The notes under the pieces are model-generated. The model ran no database searches, was not told the DNA's origin, and saw nothing but the letters and a program-made list of their open reading frames with translations. Both the position numbers and the translations under genes were made by a program. 64,000 nt of DNA. Source: Tepidimonas sediminis (GTDB lineage: Bacteria; Pseudomonadota; Gammaproteobacteria; Burkholderiales; Burkholderiaceae_C). Shown piece by piece: positions 31,273 to 36,679 of this stretch. Location of the stretch: positions 186,001 through 250,000 of the forward strand of contig NZ_VJND01000002.1 in assembly GCF_007556605.1 (NCBI RefSeq). The letters run 5' to 3'. Within the stretch, counting starts at the first letter, position 1. Every line of letters starts with the position of its first letter.

Positions 31273-33366
31273 ATGAACGCCGCCCTGCAGTCGCTGCAAC
31301 AGACGCTGGCCCCGCTGCGCGGCCACGGCCAGGCGCTGGCCGCCCCGATCCTGGTGATGCTGGTGCTGGCTATGCTGGTGCTGCCGCTGCCGCCGTGGCT
31401 GCTGGACACCTTCTTCACGCTCAACATCGGCATTGCGCTGACCGTGATGATGGTGGCCGCCTACATGAAGCGGGCGCTGGACTTCACGGCCTTCCCAACC
31501 GTGCTGCTGCTGACCACGCTGCTGCGGCTGTCGCTCAACGTCGCCTCCACGCGCGTGGTGCTGATGGAGGGCCACACCGGCCCGGGCGCGGCCGGGGCGG
31601 TGATCGAGGCCTTCGGCACCTTCCTGATCGGCGGCAACTTCGCCGTCGGCCTGATCGTGTTCCTGATCCTGGTGGTGATCAACTTCGTCGTCATCACCAA
31701 GGGCGCCGAGCGCATCGCCGAGGTCGGCGCGCGCTTCACCCTGGACGCGATGCCGGGCAAGCAGATGGCCATCGACGCCGACCTCAACGCCGGCCTGATC
31801 GACCAGGCCGAGGCCAAGCGGCGCCGCGCCGAGGTCGCGGTGGAGGCCGACTTCTTCGGCAACATGGACGGCGCTTCCAAGTTCGTGCGCGGTGATGCCA
31901 TCGCCGGCATCCTGATCCTGCTGATCAACATGATCGGCGGCTTTGCCATCGGCATGCTGCAGCACGGGCTGACGCTGGAGCAGGCCGCGCACAGCTACAT
32001 CACGCTGTCGGTGGGCGACGCGCTGGTGGCGCAGGTGCCGGCGCTGTTGATCTCGGTGGCGGCGGCGATGGTGGTCTCGCGCGTCGGCAAGGACGAAGAC
32101 CTGGGTCAGCAGATCGTCAGCCAGATGCTGGATTCGCCCAAGGTGCTGGGCGTCACCGCCGGCGTGCTGGCGCTGCTGGGCGTCATCCCCGGCATGCCCA
32201 ACGGCGTGTTCCTGCTGTTTGCGCTGCTGGCCGGCGGCACGGCCTGGTGGCTGGTGCAGCAGCGCCGCCGCGCCGAGCAGGCCAAGGCGCAGGCGGCGCA
32301 GCAGGCCCCGGCGGCCGCACCGGATGCCGAGGCCACCTGGGACGACCTGCAGCCGGTGGACCTGCTGGGGCTGGAGCTCGGCTACCGTCTGATCACGCTG
32401 GTGGACCGCAGCCGCCGCGGCGACCTGCTGACGCGCATCAAGGGCGTGCGCAAGAAGTTTGCGCAGGACGTGGGCTTTTTGCCGCCGCCGGTGCACGTGC
32501 GCGACAACCTCGAGCTCAAGCCGAGCGGCTACCGCATCACGCTGCGCGGTGTGGTCGTCGGCGAAGGCGAGGTGTTTCCGGGTCAGTTCCTCGCCATCAA
32601 CCCCGGTCACATCCGCACGCCGCTGATCGGCCAGGCCACCACCGACCCGGCGTTCGGCCTGCCGGCCACGTGGATCGACGAGCGCCAGAAGGAAAGCGCG
32701 CAAATGGCGGGCTACACCGTCGTTGATGCGGAGACCGTGCTGGCCACGCACCTGTCACACTTGATGCAGGTGCATGCGGCGCGGTTGCTGTCGCGCACCG
32801 AGGTGCAGGAGCTGGTGGAGCACGTGCGCAAGCTGGCCCCCAAGCTCATCGACGAAGTCATTCCGACCATGGTGCCGATCGGCGTGTTCCAGAAGGTGCT
32901 GCAGCTGCTGCTGGAGGAAGGCGTGCACATCCGCGACATCCGCACCATCGTCGAGACGCTGGCGGAGCACGCCGGCAGCACGCAGGATCCGCAGGAGCTG
33001 GCGCGGCGCGTGCGCGTGGCGCTGGCCCCGGCGATCGTGCAGCAGCTCTACGGCCCGCTGGAGGAGCTGGAGGTCATCGCCATCGAGCCGCAGCTGGAGC
33101 GCATCCTGGTGCAGGCGCTCAGCCCCAGCGGCAACGGGGTGCTCGATCCCGGCGTGGCCGACATGCTGACGCGCTCGGCCGCCCAGGTGGCGCAGCGGCA
33201 GGAAGAGGCGGGGCTGCCGGCCGTGCTGCTGGTGCCCGACGCCATCCGGCAGGCCATGGCGCGCCTGCTGCGCCGCGCCGCGCCGCGCCTGGCGGTGCTG
33301 GCGCACAGCGAGATCCCTGACACCCACACCATCCGCATCGGCCCGATCCTTGGAGAGCCCGCATGA
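31273..33366 (+). CDS. flhA: Flagellar export gate protein FlhA
   Basis: A 697-residue protein. About eight transmembrane helices fill the N-terminal half, including TAFPTVLLLTTLLRLSLNVASTRVVL and the conserved cytoplasmic FHIPEP-type segment (TLDAMPGKQMAIDADLNAGLI). A large C-terminal docking domain for chaperone-substrate complexes follows. Length matches E. coli FlhA (692). Its end overlaps the flhF start (ATGA). Confidence 0.97.
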   Translation: MNAALQSLQQTLAPLRGHGQALAAPILVMLVLAMLVLPLPPWLLDTFFTLNIGIALTVMMVAAYMKRALDFTAFPTVLLLTTLLRLSLNVASTRVVLMEGHTGPGAAGAVIEAFGTFLIGGNFAVGLIVFLILVVINFVVITKGAERIAEVGARFTLDAMPGKQMAIDADLNAGLIDQAEAKRRRAEVAVEADFFGNMDGASKFVRGDAIAGILILLINMIGGFAIGMLQHGLTLEQAAHSYITLSVGDALVAQVPALLISVAAAMVVSRVGKDEDLGQQIVSQMLDSPKVLGVTAGVLALLGVIPGMPNGVFLLFALLAGGTAWWLVQQRRRAEQAKAQAAQQAPAAAPDAEATWDDLQPVDLLGLELGYRLITLVDRSRRGDLLTRIKGVRKKFAQDVGFLPPPVHVRDNLELKPSGYRITLRGVVVGEGEVFPGQFLAINPGHIRTPLIGQATTDPAFGLPATWIDERQKESAQMAGYTVVDAETVLATHLSHLMQVHAARLLSRTEVQELVEHVRKLAPKLIDEVIPTMVPIGVFQKVLQLLLEEGVHIRDIRTIVETLAEHAGSTQDPQELARRVRVALAPAIVQQLYGPLEELEVIAIEPQLERILVQALSPSGNGVLDPGVADMLTRSAAQVAQRQEEAGLPAVLLVPDAIRQAMARLLRRAAPRLAVLAHSEIPDTHTIRIGPILGEPA

Positions 33367-34901
33367 ACGCGCAACGCTTCGTCGCCCCCAATTCGCGCGA
33401 GGCCATGGCCCAGGCGCGCGCCGCCTTCGGCGAGCAGGCCGTGATCCTGTCCACGCGCTCCACGCCCGACGGCTTCGAGGTCGTGGCCACCTCGGAGGAG
33501 GCGCTGGCGGCGCTGGCCGCGCAGGCCAGCCCGCGCCTGCAGCCGGCCGCCGAGACGCGCCTGCCCGAGTCGCGCGCGGCGCGGCCGGCGCGCGCGCCGC
33601 TGCAGCAGCGCGCCGCCGCGCAGCTGCCGCCGGTGTCGCCCGACAGCAGCGTGGCGCAGGACGCCGTGACGCTGGCGATGAGCACGCTGTCGTTCCAGGA
33701 GTACGTGCGCGAGCGCATGCTGCGCAAGCGCCAGGCGGCGCTGGAGGGGCGTCTGGAAGCGGCCGAGCCACCCGCGCGCGCGCCGCGGCGCGAGGCGCCG
33801 GCGGCGGCGCCGCAGCCGCCGCTGGCACCGCGAGGCGCCGAGGTGACGCTGAGCTTCGGCGCGACGGCGGCGCCTGCCGCGGCCAAGGCCGCGCCGAGCC
33901 GGCCCGCCGCCGCGGCCACGCCTTCGGCCGCGCCCGCGGCGCCGTCGGCGGCGGCGCAGCTGACCGCGCAGCTGGAGGGGCTCCGGCAGATGGTGGAGGA
34001 GCGCTTCCAGACGCTGGCGTGGCTGGGCCAGTCGCGCCTGAACCCGATCCAGTCGACGCTGATGCACAAGTTCATCCGCGCCGGCTATTCGCCCACCGTG
34101 GCGCGCGCGGTGCTGGAGCGGCTGCCGGCGCAGCTGGACGCCGCCGGCGCCTGGCGCTGGGTGCTGGACGTGCTGGCGCACAACCTGCGCGTGGCGCGCG
34201 AGCCCGGCCTGCCGTGCGACGAAGGCGGCATCTTCGCGCTGGTCGGCCCCACCGGCGTGGGCAAGACCACCACGGTGGCCAAGCTGGCGGCCCAGTGCGT
34301 CAAGGCCTACGGCGCCGGCAGCGTCGGCCTCATCACGCTGGACACCTATCGCGTGGCCGGCTTCGAGCAGCTGCGTGCGTACGGCCGCATGCTGGGCGTG
34401 GTGGCGCACCAGGCGCACGACCAGGCCGCGCTGCAGGATCTGCTGGAGCTGCTGGCCGGCAAGCGCATGGTCATCATCGACACGCCGGGGCTGGCGCAGC
34501 GCGATCCGCGCCTGCAGGACATGCTGGCGCTGCTGCAGGCGCCCGCGGTGCGCAAGCTGCTGGTGCTGGACGCCGGCCGCCATGGCGACACGCTGGACGA
34601 CGTGGTGCAGACCTACAAGGGGCTGGGCCTGCATGGCACGGTGCTGTCCAAGGTCGACGAGGCGGCCAAGCTCGCGCCGGCGCTCGACGCGCTGATCCGC
34701 CACCAGCTGCCGCTGCGGGGCCTGAGCACCGGCCAGCGCGTGCCGGAGGACTGGCAGCGGCCGGAGGCGGCTACGCTGGTGCGCATGTCGATGGGCGGCA
34801 ATGGCAAGTCGCCGTTCGAGCCGCAGCGCGACGAGCTGCCGTACTTCTTCGCCGATGCGGCCGCCGGCGCGTGGCAGCCGCAGGGGGCTGGCCATGCTTG
34901 A
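33363..34901 (+). CDS. flhF: Flagellar SRP-like GTPase FlhF
   Basis: A 512-residue protein. A basic N-terminal region is followed by a long Ala/Pro-rich linker (about 60-200) and the SRP-type NG domain with Walker A GPTGVGKTTT starting at G295. LITLDTYRVAGFEQLRAYG and IIDTPGLAQRD follow. FlhF sets flagellar position, usually with FlhG. In the next gene the FlhG partner is degenerate. Confidence 0.95.
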   Translation: MNAQRFVAPNSREAMAQARAAFGEQAVILSTRSTPDGFEVVATSEEALAALAAQASPRLQPAAETRLPESRAARPARAPLQQRAAAQLPPVSPDSSVAQDAVTLAMSTLSFQEYVRERMLRKRQAALEGRLEAAEPPARAPRREAPAAAPQPPLAPRGAEVTLSFGATAAPAAAKAAPSRPAAAATPSAAPAAPSAAAQLTAQLEGLRQMVEERFQTLAWLGQSRLNPIQSTLMHKFIRAGYSPTVARAVLERLPAQLDAAGAWRWVLDVLAHNLRVAREPGLPCDEGGIFALVGPTGVGKTTTVAKLAAQCVKAYGAGSVGLITLDTYRVAGFEQLRAYGRMLGVVAHQAHDQAALQDLLELLAGKRMVIIDTPGLAQRDPRLQDMLALLQAPAVRKLLVLDAGRHGDTLDDVVQTYKGLGLHGTVLSKVDEAAKLAPALDALIRHQLPLRGLSTGQRVPEDWQRPEAATLVRMSMGGNGKSPFEPQRDELPYFFADAAAGAWQPQGAGHA

Positions 34902-35502
34902 TGCGCGGCGCCTGGCACATGACCAGGCCGCCGGGCTGGCGGCCTGGGGGCTGCAGCCGCCGCTGCGCGTGGTGGCGCTGATCGAGGTGGGCGAGGCCGC
35001 CGCGGCGCTGGCGCGGCGCCTGGCCGCAGGTTGCGCGCGGCTCGGGCTGGAGGCCGTCGGCGTGGAGGGGCCGCCGTCGCTGTGGCATGACGCACCGCCG
35101 GCCGACGTCTGGCTGTGGTGCGCCGAGGCGCAGGTGCTGGCGCGCTGGTGGCCAGGGGACGGCGCGCGCCCGCTGGTGCCGCTGCTTGCGCAGCCCGAGG
35201 CCATCGTCGGCGCCTACCGGGCGCTGAAGCTGCTGCGCCAGCACGCGCTGGCACCCGCGGTCGTTGCGCTGGCGCGCCAGCCGGGCGAGGAGCCGGCGCT
35301 GGCGGCGGCGCTCAGCGCGCTGCGGCGCACCTGCGCGCAGCACCTGTCCTGGCAGCCGGTGGCCTGGACGCTCGGGTATCATGACGCGTGTCATCCCTGC
35401 GGGGACGCGGCCGCCGACGATGCGGTGGTCACGCGGGTGCTCGAGGTCGCCTGGCTGCTGGAGGGCGAGCCGATGCAGCGGAGGCCGATGGCGACATGCT
35501 GA
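34894..35502 (+). CDS. Degenerate FlhG/MinD-like protein without a P-loop
   Basis: A 202-residue protein overlapping the flhF end by 8 bp, in the position of flhG. It begins like FlhG (DQAAGLAAW, then a beta strand LRVVALIEVG) and keeps a recognisable version of the FlhG segment PEAIVGAYRALKLLRQH. The deviant Walker A (KGGVGKT) is absent: the strand is followed by EVGEAAAALARRLA with no Lys or GKT. No switch motifs are visible. It is also shorter than the usual 260-290 residues. It reads as an intact but non-ATPase derivative rather than a frameshifted gene. fliA follows. Confidence 0.65.
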   Translation: MLDARRLAHDQAAGLAAWGLQPPLRVVALIEVGEAAAALARRLAAGCARLGLEAVGVEGPPSLWHDAPPADVWLWCAEAQVLARWWPGDGARPLVPLLAQPEAIVGAYRALKLLRQHALAPAVVALARQPGEEPALAAALSALRRTCAQHLSWQPVAWTLGYHDACHPCGDAAADDAVVTRVLEVAWLLEGEPMQRRPMATC

Positions 35503-35549: not shown

Positions 35550-36275
35550 ATGTACACCCCCAAGGGCACGCTGGACCGCGACGCCCAGCTGCGCCAGTAC
35601 GCGCCGCTGGTGCACCGCATCGCGCACCTGATGATCGCGCGCCTGCCCCCCAGCGTCGAGCTCGACGACCTGATCCAGGTCGGCATGATCGGGCTGACCG
35701 AAGCGCTGGCGCGCTACGAGCCGTCGATGGGGGTGCAGTTCGAGACGTTCGCCAGCCAGCGCATCCGCGGCGCCATGCTCGACGAGCTGCGCGACGCCGA
35801 CTGGATGTCGCGCGGCTCACGCAAGCTGCAGAAGGACATCGAGGGCGCGATCCACCGACTGGAGCAGCGGCTGCAGCGGCCGCCGCGCGAATCCGAGATC
35901 GCCGAGGAACTGGGGATGACGCTGGCACAGTACCACGAGACACTGGCGCGCATGCGCGGCACGCAGCTGGTCTACCTGGAGGATCTGGGCAGCGGCAAGG
36001 GCGGTGAGGAGGACGAGGGCTTCCTCGACCGCTACCTGCCCGAGGACGGAGACGCCGACCCCGAGCGCATCCTGGCCGACCAGCGCATGCGTGCGGCACT
36101 GGTGGAGGCCATCGGCAAGCTGCCCGAGCGCGAGCAGTACGTCATGAGCATGTACTACGAGCACGACATGAACCTGAAGGAGATCGCCGCCGTGCTCGGG
36201 GTGACGGAGTCGCGCGTCAGCCAGCTGCACTCGCAGGCCGTGGCGCGCCTGCGCGCGCGGCTGCGCGAACACTGA
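35550..36275 (+). CDS. fliA: RNA polymerase sigma-28 factor FliA
   Basis: A 241-residue sigma factor starting MYTPKGTLDRDAQLRQYAPLV. Region 2 (VELDDLIQVGMIGLTEALARYE and FASQRIRGAMLDELRDADW), region 3 and region 4 (LKEIAAVLGVTESRVSQLHSQA) are visible. The start is set by GGAG at 35540-35543, 6 nt before the ATG; longer in-frame starts upstream lack such a site. FliA reads late flagellar promoters such as the one found before flgM. Confidence 0.96.
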   Translation: MYTPKGTLDRDAQLRQYAPLVHRIAHLMIARLPPSVELDDLIQVGMIGLTEALARYEPSMGVQFETFASQRIRGAMLDELRDADWMSRGSRKLQKDIEGAIHRLEQRLQRPPRESEIAEELGMTLAQYHETLARMRGTQLVYLEDLGSGKGGEEDEGFLDRYLPEDGDADPERILADQRMRAALVEAIGKLPEREQYVMSMYYEHDMNLKEIAAVLGVTESRVSQLHSQAVARLRARLREH

Positions 36276-36316: not shown

Positions 36317-36679
36317 TCAGCGCGGCCAGCCGCGCGGTGCCGGGCGTTGCCCCAGGCGGGCGTAAGCCTGCAGCGCGTCCTGCGGCAGCAGCGTCTGCAG
36401 CGCGGCGCGTGCCTGCGCATCCAGGCGGGCCTGCAGCTCGTGCAGGGTCTGCAGCCGGGCGGCCAGGCGCTCCACGAGCGGGGCCGGCGGTGCCTCGCGC
36501 AGGGCGGCCAGCAGCGGGCGCGCCTGGACGAACGCGTGCGCCAGCCGCTCGCACGCCGCGGCAAAGGCGTCGGCGTCGAGCTGGCCGGCGGCGTGTCGGG
36601 TGGCGGTCTCCAGCGCGGCGTCGAGCTCGCGCAACAAGCCCTCCAGCGTGGTGACGGGGTCGGTGGGCGCCGGCTGCAT
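36317..36679 (-). CDS. flgN: Flagellar export chaperone FlgN
   Basis: A 120-residue all-helical, Leu/Ala-rich protein with no catalytic motif. Identification rests on size, helical content (TTLEGLLRELDAALE at the start, LLAALREAPPAPLVERLAARLQ later) and its position directly after flgM. FlgN carries FlgK and FlgL to the export gate. The roughly 40 bp between it and the fliA end show no clear terminator. Confidence 0.85.
   Translation of the reverse strand: MQPAPTDPVTTLEGLLRELDAALETATRHAAGQLDADAFAAACERLAHAFVQARPLLAALREAPPAPLVERLAARLQTLHELQARLDAQARAALQTLLPQDALQAYARLGQRPAPRGWPR

Follow-up and report, generated by a model that had tools for sequence, protein, structure and literature searches.

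A P-loop-less, FlhG-derived protein with a conserved enhancer-helix glutamine beside FlhF in Tepidimonas sediminis and most sampled Burkholderiales

In current models, the ATP cycle of FlhG is central to the counting of flagella. The closest described relatives of the protein studied here are FlhG/YlxH (PDB 4rz2 and 4rz3) and FleN from Pseudomonas (PDB 5j1j, 7ejw, and 8p53), the latter solved with AMPPNP and with FleQ. According to a 2025 review, the enhancer helix of FlhG carries a DQAxxLR motif, of which the glutamine is reported to be co-catalytic for FlhF (PMC12826062). For Shewanella, it has been reported that FliM binds FlhG without nucleotide while FlrA binds only the ATP-bound dimer (PMC11236974). 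In Vibrio, mutations in the Walker A motif of FlhG lead to hyperflagellation (PMC7226244); therefore, an FlhG blind to ATP is not expected to work alone.

We looked at the flagellar locus of T. sediminis in a stretch of 64,000 nucleotides, hereafter the window. The genes are ordered motB, a CheY-like receiver gene, cheZ, flhB, flhA, flhF, a flhG-derived gene, fliA, and flgM. The product of flhF (33363..34901, + strand) is an SRP-type GTPase (NCBIfam TIGR03499 FlhF, 250.9 bits for a cut-off of 174.15) in which the P-loop, GPTGVGKTTT, is present, and fliA, encoding the flagellar sigma factor, was found at about 35550..36275 on the + strand (NCBIfam FliA, 289.2 bits, cut-off 201). Between these two genes, both named by NCBIfam, an intact frame of 202 codons (34894..35502, +) was assigned as flhG-derived from the ORF, the alignment, stepwise profiles, and fold models. 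The start codon, ATG, lies within the 3' end of flhF, and the frame stops before fliA. A preliminary description of this DNA had proposed that a shortened gene with an open frame and no KGGVGKT occupies the place of flhG, and these points were borne out: neither KGGVGKT nor any other P-loop was detected anywhere in the frame, and the 202 residues compare with about 280-295 in the intact FlhGs of our alignment. The former P-loop position, after strand beta1, corresponds to residues 31-36, EVGEAA (34984..35001, +), in a loop that is shortened in T. sediminis. No Pfam or NCBIfam model matched the protein, even at E 10, and a sequence search of the PDB gave no convincing match. A misread start or a frameshift was ruled out, as the congeners have the same frame and flhF is directly upstream. 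An assembly error is unlikely because two congeners, from separate assemblies, share the gene without P-loop (G024, 53-56% identity, and G151, 44-48%). The gene looks coding, with a third-position GC of 0.91 and, in comparison with the congeners, dN/dS values of 0.46-0.58, a weaker constraint than that on FlhF (0.24-0.34) or FliA (0.09-0.11). Beside flgM, a small ORF on the - strand (36317-36679) had no Pfam match at 1e-5; by its position in the usual gene order, it is possibly flgN.

The N-terminus of the protein holds a remnant of the enhancer helix, residues 4-17 (ARRLAHDQAAGLAA; 34903..34944, +), identified from the motif table and predicted as a helix over residues 4-17 with low pLDDT. 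D10, Q11, A12, and L15 are kept while Ala replaces the Arg of DQAxxLR, giving DQAAGLA, and the full motif is thus not found. The segment HDQAAGL (residues 9-15), absent from the preliminary description, contains the residue best conserved across relatives, Gln11 (34924..34926, +), which aligns with the enhancer-helix glutamine. Among the 151 aligned P-loop-less proteins, this glutamine is kept in 54/54 from other families of the order Burkholderiales and in 97/97 from the family Burkholderiaceae_C, the latter figure being slightly favoured by the method since frames were chosen partly by a DQ-type pattern and, for about five family loci, differ from those given by geometry alone. It is also present in 37 of the 40 proteins from the class Gammaproteobacteria outside the order, and only three residues, this one among them, are invariant in the order set. 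It leads the family ranking (n=97), ahead of the AYxxxK-helix Tyr (96), the enhancer-helix Leu (95), and the AYxxxK-helix Lys (94). That second conserved segment, residues 101-114 (PEAIVGAYRALKLL; 35194..35235, +), aligns with DEPASITDAYALIKVL of intact FlhGs, as expected from the earlier claim that a MinD/FlhG segment is kept. Loss of the DQAxxLR arginine is seen in 36/97 family members, T. sediminis included, and activation of FlhF may therefore be weakened. Altogether, the protein resembles FlhG/YlxH in the flhF-flhG gene order, the enhancer glutamine, and the AYxxxK helix, but differs from it by having neither P-loop nor DAD motif, by being about 80-90 residues shorter, and by the lost Arg.

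Relationship to FlhG was followed by stepwise profile comparison. The T. sediminis protein reached 94.5 bits against the family profile, a score that none of 1000 shuffled sequences attained, and hhalign connected family to order (99.7%), family to intact FlhG (99.2%), and order to intact FlhG (100%). Compared directly with intact FlhG, the protein gave 0.2 bits, which is not significant, one shuffle in 1000 scoring as high, and hhalign of its own genus gave 10%. Descent of the linked gene from the FlhG lineage is supported by this chain of profiles. Structure models were built with eight sequences. That of T. sediminis was weak (pLDDT 55.6, pTM 0.55), and that of a relative, Tepidicella xavieri (L291), reached pLDDT 65.4 and pTM 0.66. 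Foldseek placed an FlhG first for both, 4rz3 for T. sediminis (E 2e-3) and 4rz2 for Tepidicella (E 2.6e-4), in the latter case followed by FleN 5j1j (E 3.6e-4), whose fold the Tepidicella model appears to share. By VIA-align, the FlhG/FleN entries had Z-scores of 11.1-13.0 against the Tepidicella model (13.0 for 4rz3), tied with dethiobiotin synthetase at 13.1. Dethiobiotin synthetase shares the same broad fold. Hence, the comparison with FlhG by structure prediction, suggested in the preliminary description, came out in favour of FlhG in the Foldseek rankings and less clearly in the weak model of the protein itself and the tied Z-scores. MinD would share the SIMIBI fold by descent; it is encoded separately in T. 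sediminis (L034, over the NCBIfam cut-off) and forms a long branch outside in the tree. The protein is an FlhG by descent but falls outside the FlhG ATPases by its motifs, and ATPase-less FlhG variant is the best name for it.

To place the gene among relatives, we used an flhF profile search. A first scan with the T. sediminis protein itself confirmed no relative. FlhF was over the cut-off in 143 of 200 genomes of the family, 99 of 150 of the order, and 67 of 143 of the class. The downstream gene was read in 106 family genomes, comprising 102 of the 143, three with a weaker FlhF, and one from the order sample (G330). It was P-loop-less in 97 (28 of which, T. sediminis included, came from the query's own search) and intact in five (L105, L106, L221, L224, and L225), and in four loci flhF abuts fliA. 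From the remaining order families, 59 loci were retrieved (58 of 95 genomes over the cut-off, plus G344), of which 54 were P-loop-less, one intact (L165), one short (L155), and three unusable. Outside the order, all 40 class loci read, from 40 of 65 genomes over the cut-off, have an intact P-loop. Counted as GKGGxGK[TS] among the flhF-linked genes read, this gives 40/40 in the class, 1/55 in the other order families, and 5/102 in the family; the P-loop-less groups of 97 and 54 were set after putting the six P-loop-bearing copies apart. Left out of the counts were L141, L149, L155, and L161 (lacking a usable full ORF or a neighbouring FliA, or too short) and, as repeats, L226 (of L060) and L222 and L223 (of two among L053, L062, L217, and L219). 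The loss is thus not peculiar to the T. sediminis genome, since linked genes are P-loop-less in most sampled Burkholderiales. Orthologues with a normal P-loop, looked for as a sign of a misread start, numbered only 6 of 157 aligned flhF-linked order genes and lie outside the P-loop-less clade. Scores against the profile of the 40 intact FlhGs drop gradually over the flhF-linked ORFs, from 525 bits to about none. GK[TS] is retained in 9/54 P-loop-less proteins of other families, some as GRxGVGKT, a form seen in the intermediates L110, L112, L118, and L124; neither GK[TS] nor DAD was found in any of the 97 P-loop-less family members. The shortest family forms, 199-206 residues in the trimmed alignment, belong to the genus of T. 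sediminis itself. On plasmids, an FlhF search returned 21 records, each below 60% identity.

In a tree of 64 rows, of which the T. sediminis protein is not one, the 37 sampled P-loop-less FlhGs formed one clade with 100/100 support, where long-branch effects are possible as these rows evolve fast. The six intact order copies fell outside this clade, which suggests that they were acquired from elsewhere. Four of them (L106, L165, L224, and L225), linked to flhF and with an intact P-loop, have no recognisable DQA helix and form a clade of their own. The two others, L221 (G025) and L105 (G049), contain both DQAEGLR and GKGGVGKT in genomes without FlhC or the orphan ATPase described below; here, the native flhG was probably replaced by a copy from outside. 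Finally, L053, L062, L217, and L219, from three genera of the family, have no linked flhG at the expected position, and their flhF and fliA are separated by 46, 46, 41, and 62 bases. As these 4/106 family loci do without it, the gene is dispensable there.

We also looked at the regulators to which FlhG is coupled elsewhere. The FleQ domain (PF06490) was found, with E-values no worse than 4.4e-8, in 6/6 gammaproteobacteria tested. Among 73 Burkholderiales, 65 gave no hit and eight gave weak hits (3.2e-7 to 6.7e-6) over Pfam's cut-off; in T. sediminis, in contrast to the FleN system solved with FleQ, no FleQ domain was present at E 1e-5. It is reasonable that loss of the FleQ/FlrA partner explains the decay of the ATP site, although the argument has only about one evolutionary event and six positive genomes behind it. 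Given that FlrA reportedly needs the ATP-bound FlhG dimer, ATP control would have become dispensable once the order had lost FleQ/FlrA. FlhC was searched in 27 family genomes and was present in 13/13 with a P-loop-less gene, in 4/4 without linked flhG, and in G022, where the linked gene was unread. It was present in 0/9 of the other family genomes, in which the linked P-loop was read as intact in five and presumed so in four. Of 23 class genomes, 21 had no FlhC and two had weak hits. Within the order, strong FlhC hits showed no relation to GK[TS] (3/26 vs 6/28, Fisher p 0.47). That FlhDC brought about the P-loop loss fits the family, yet this was rejected, as FlhC does not track GK[TS] across the order.

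The T. sediminis genome contains another FlhG-like ATPase, not linked to flhF and referred to here as the orphan (contig C9, G000:C9:38771-39619; L033/L230). SGKGGVGKT, DADLGLAN, and DTGAG are all present in it, and GKGGxGK[TS] was found in 35/35 orphan proteins; a DQA helix was found neither in the T. sediminis orphan nor in the N-termini of the 35. With the intact FlhG profile, the 35 orphans scored 210-243 bits vs 81-96 for three MinDs, which places the orphan closer to FlhG than to MinD. Unlike the linked gene, it lies in a GGDEF - FlhG-like ATPase - HDOD cluster (L227, 8187-11348, on the same contig of G000), of which the GGDEF neighbour is kept in 34/35 related loci. The other relatives in the genome are MinD and ApbC, over their NCBIfam cut-offs, and ParA-like and RepA-like proteins, under them. 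The second, complete flhG that the preliminary description had thought worth looking for thus exists as far as the ATPase goes, but it is unlinked and without the FlhF-activating helix. A strong orphan match was taken as E 3.5e-61 or better, picked by E-value; the 108 genomes with a match include 16 whose values lay between 6e-47 and 7e-21, and these were scored as without orphan. On this basis, in 150 family genomes, the orphan was found in 90/106 with FlhF over the cut-off vs 2/44 others (Fisher p 1.8e-21, kinship ignored). By state of the linked gene, in the same sample, it accompanied 67/75 P-loop-less, 0/4 intact, and 1/3 absent. Outside the family, three clear cases were found in 146 order genomes (G269, G345, and G288), and in G345 FlhF is not over the cut-off. 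Being so rare there, the orphan is not the general reason for the P-loop loss.

That FlhF is paired with a non-ATPase FlhG and the control of flagellar number changed, as first proposed, is plausible. Going further, we think it somewhat probable that the linked protein is a nucleotide-blind activator of the FlhF GTPase, on a decayed FlhG scaffold, acting via Gln11. The N-terminal helix would insert into the FlhF GTP dimer and supply the glutamine, leading to GTP hydrolysis and release of FlhF; with no ATP gate, the protein would be a constitutive activator on a MinD-type scaffold. Retention of the enhancer glutamine across the order while the ATP site decayed argues for an activator, and the high dN/dS and the four family loci without flhG argue against it. 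A split FlhG, in which the linked protein retains the FlhF-activating helix and the orphan provides the ATP part in trans, so that two half-proteins share control, is an unlikely alternative. The complete ATPase motifs of the orphan, its missing DQA helix, its FlhG-like scores, and its co-occurrence with FlhF and with P-loop-less genes (and none of the four intact ones) would suit such a division. Against this, trees place orphans apart from the linked P-loop-less lineage, and a simple fission of the linked gene was rejected; the orphan is missing in 8/75 genomes with a P-loop-less FlhG, the co-occurrence ignores kinship, and outside the family it is nearly absent though the linked FlhGs are already degenerate. 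A broader version, an order-wide rewiring of FlhF/FlhG in which the nucleotide-blind activator is joined in the family by the GGDEF-cluster ATPase, of separate derivation, as the ATP-dependent half of a two-protein switch, maybe coupling c-di-GMP to flagellar number, is rather unlikely and put forward tentatively.

Other readings of the linked protein were considered as well. If the main job of FlhG was lost in the order, the gene might be a relic on its way out with little function in the genus, which the dN/dS, the short forms of this genus, the empty flhF-fliA intervals, and the truncated L155 would fit. We find this quite unlikely, as the gene is kept in a conserved position in 97 family loci that all share one glutamine, dN/dS is below 1, and the AYxxxK helix retains its Tyr and Lys. 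Ordinary FlhG behaviour, with nucleotide still bound via an unusual site, is very improbable: the fold of the Tepidicella model and the GK[TS] remnants of other families leave some room for it, while the 97 P-loop-less family members have neither GK[TS] nor DAD and the loop is shortened in T. sediminis. Hardly credible at all is an unrelated protein lying between flhF and fliA by chance. The failed Pfam, NCBIfam, and PDB matches and the poor direct scores, of the protein and of its genus, are what such a protein would give; nevertheless, the stepwise profiles reach FlhG, Foldseek ranks FlhG first, and intermediates bridge the gap.

In the open-access literature, as represented mostly by titles and the beginnings of abstracts, we recognised no description of a P-loop-less FlhG. 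An order in which most sampled members are without the ATP site of FlhG, yet retain the FlhF-activating glutamine, constitutes a natural experiment separating the two functions, and Burkholderiales with such an FlhG may control their flagella outside the textbook models. For the part that is missing, the orphan ATPase offers a concrete candidate. The P-loop-less FlhGs bear on two questions listed as open in the 2025 review: whether FlhG works with transcription regulators besides FlrA/FleQ, and what its partners are beyond the well-studied models (PMC12826062).

In the short copy L155 (G219, 1062-1461), from a genome of three contigs, the enhancer helix runs in frame directly into the C-terminal half, and the region from the P-loop to switch II is missing. 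Judging by this arrangement, it appears to be a natural minimal FlhG, the extreme of the P-loop-less series.
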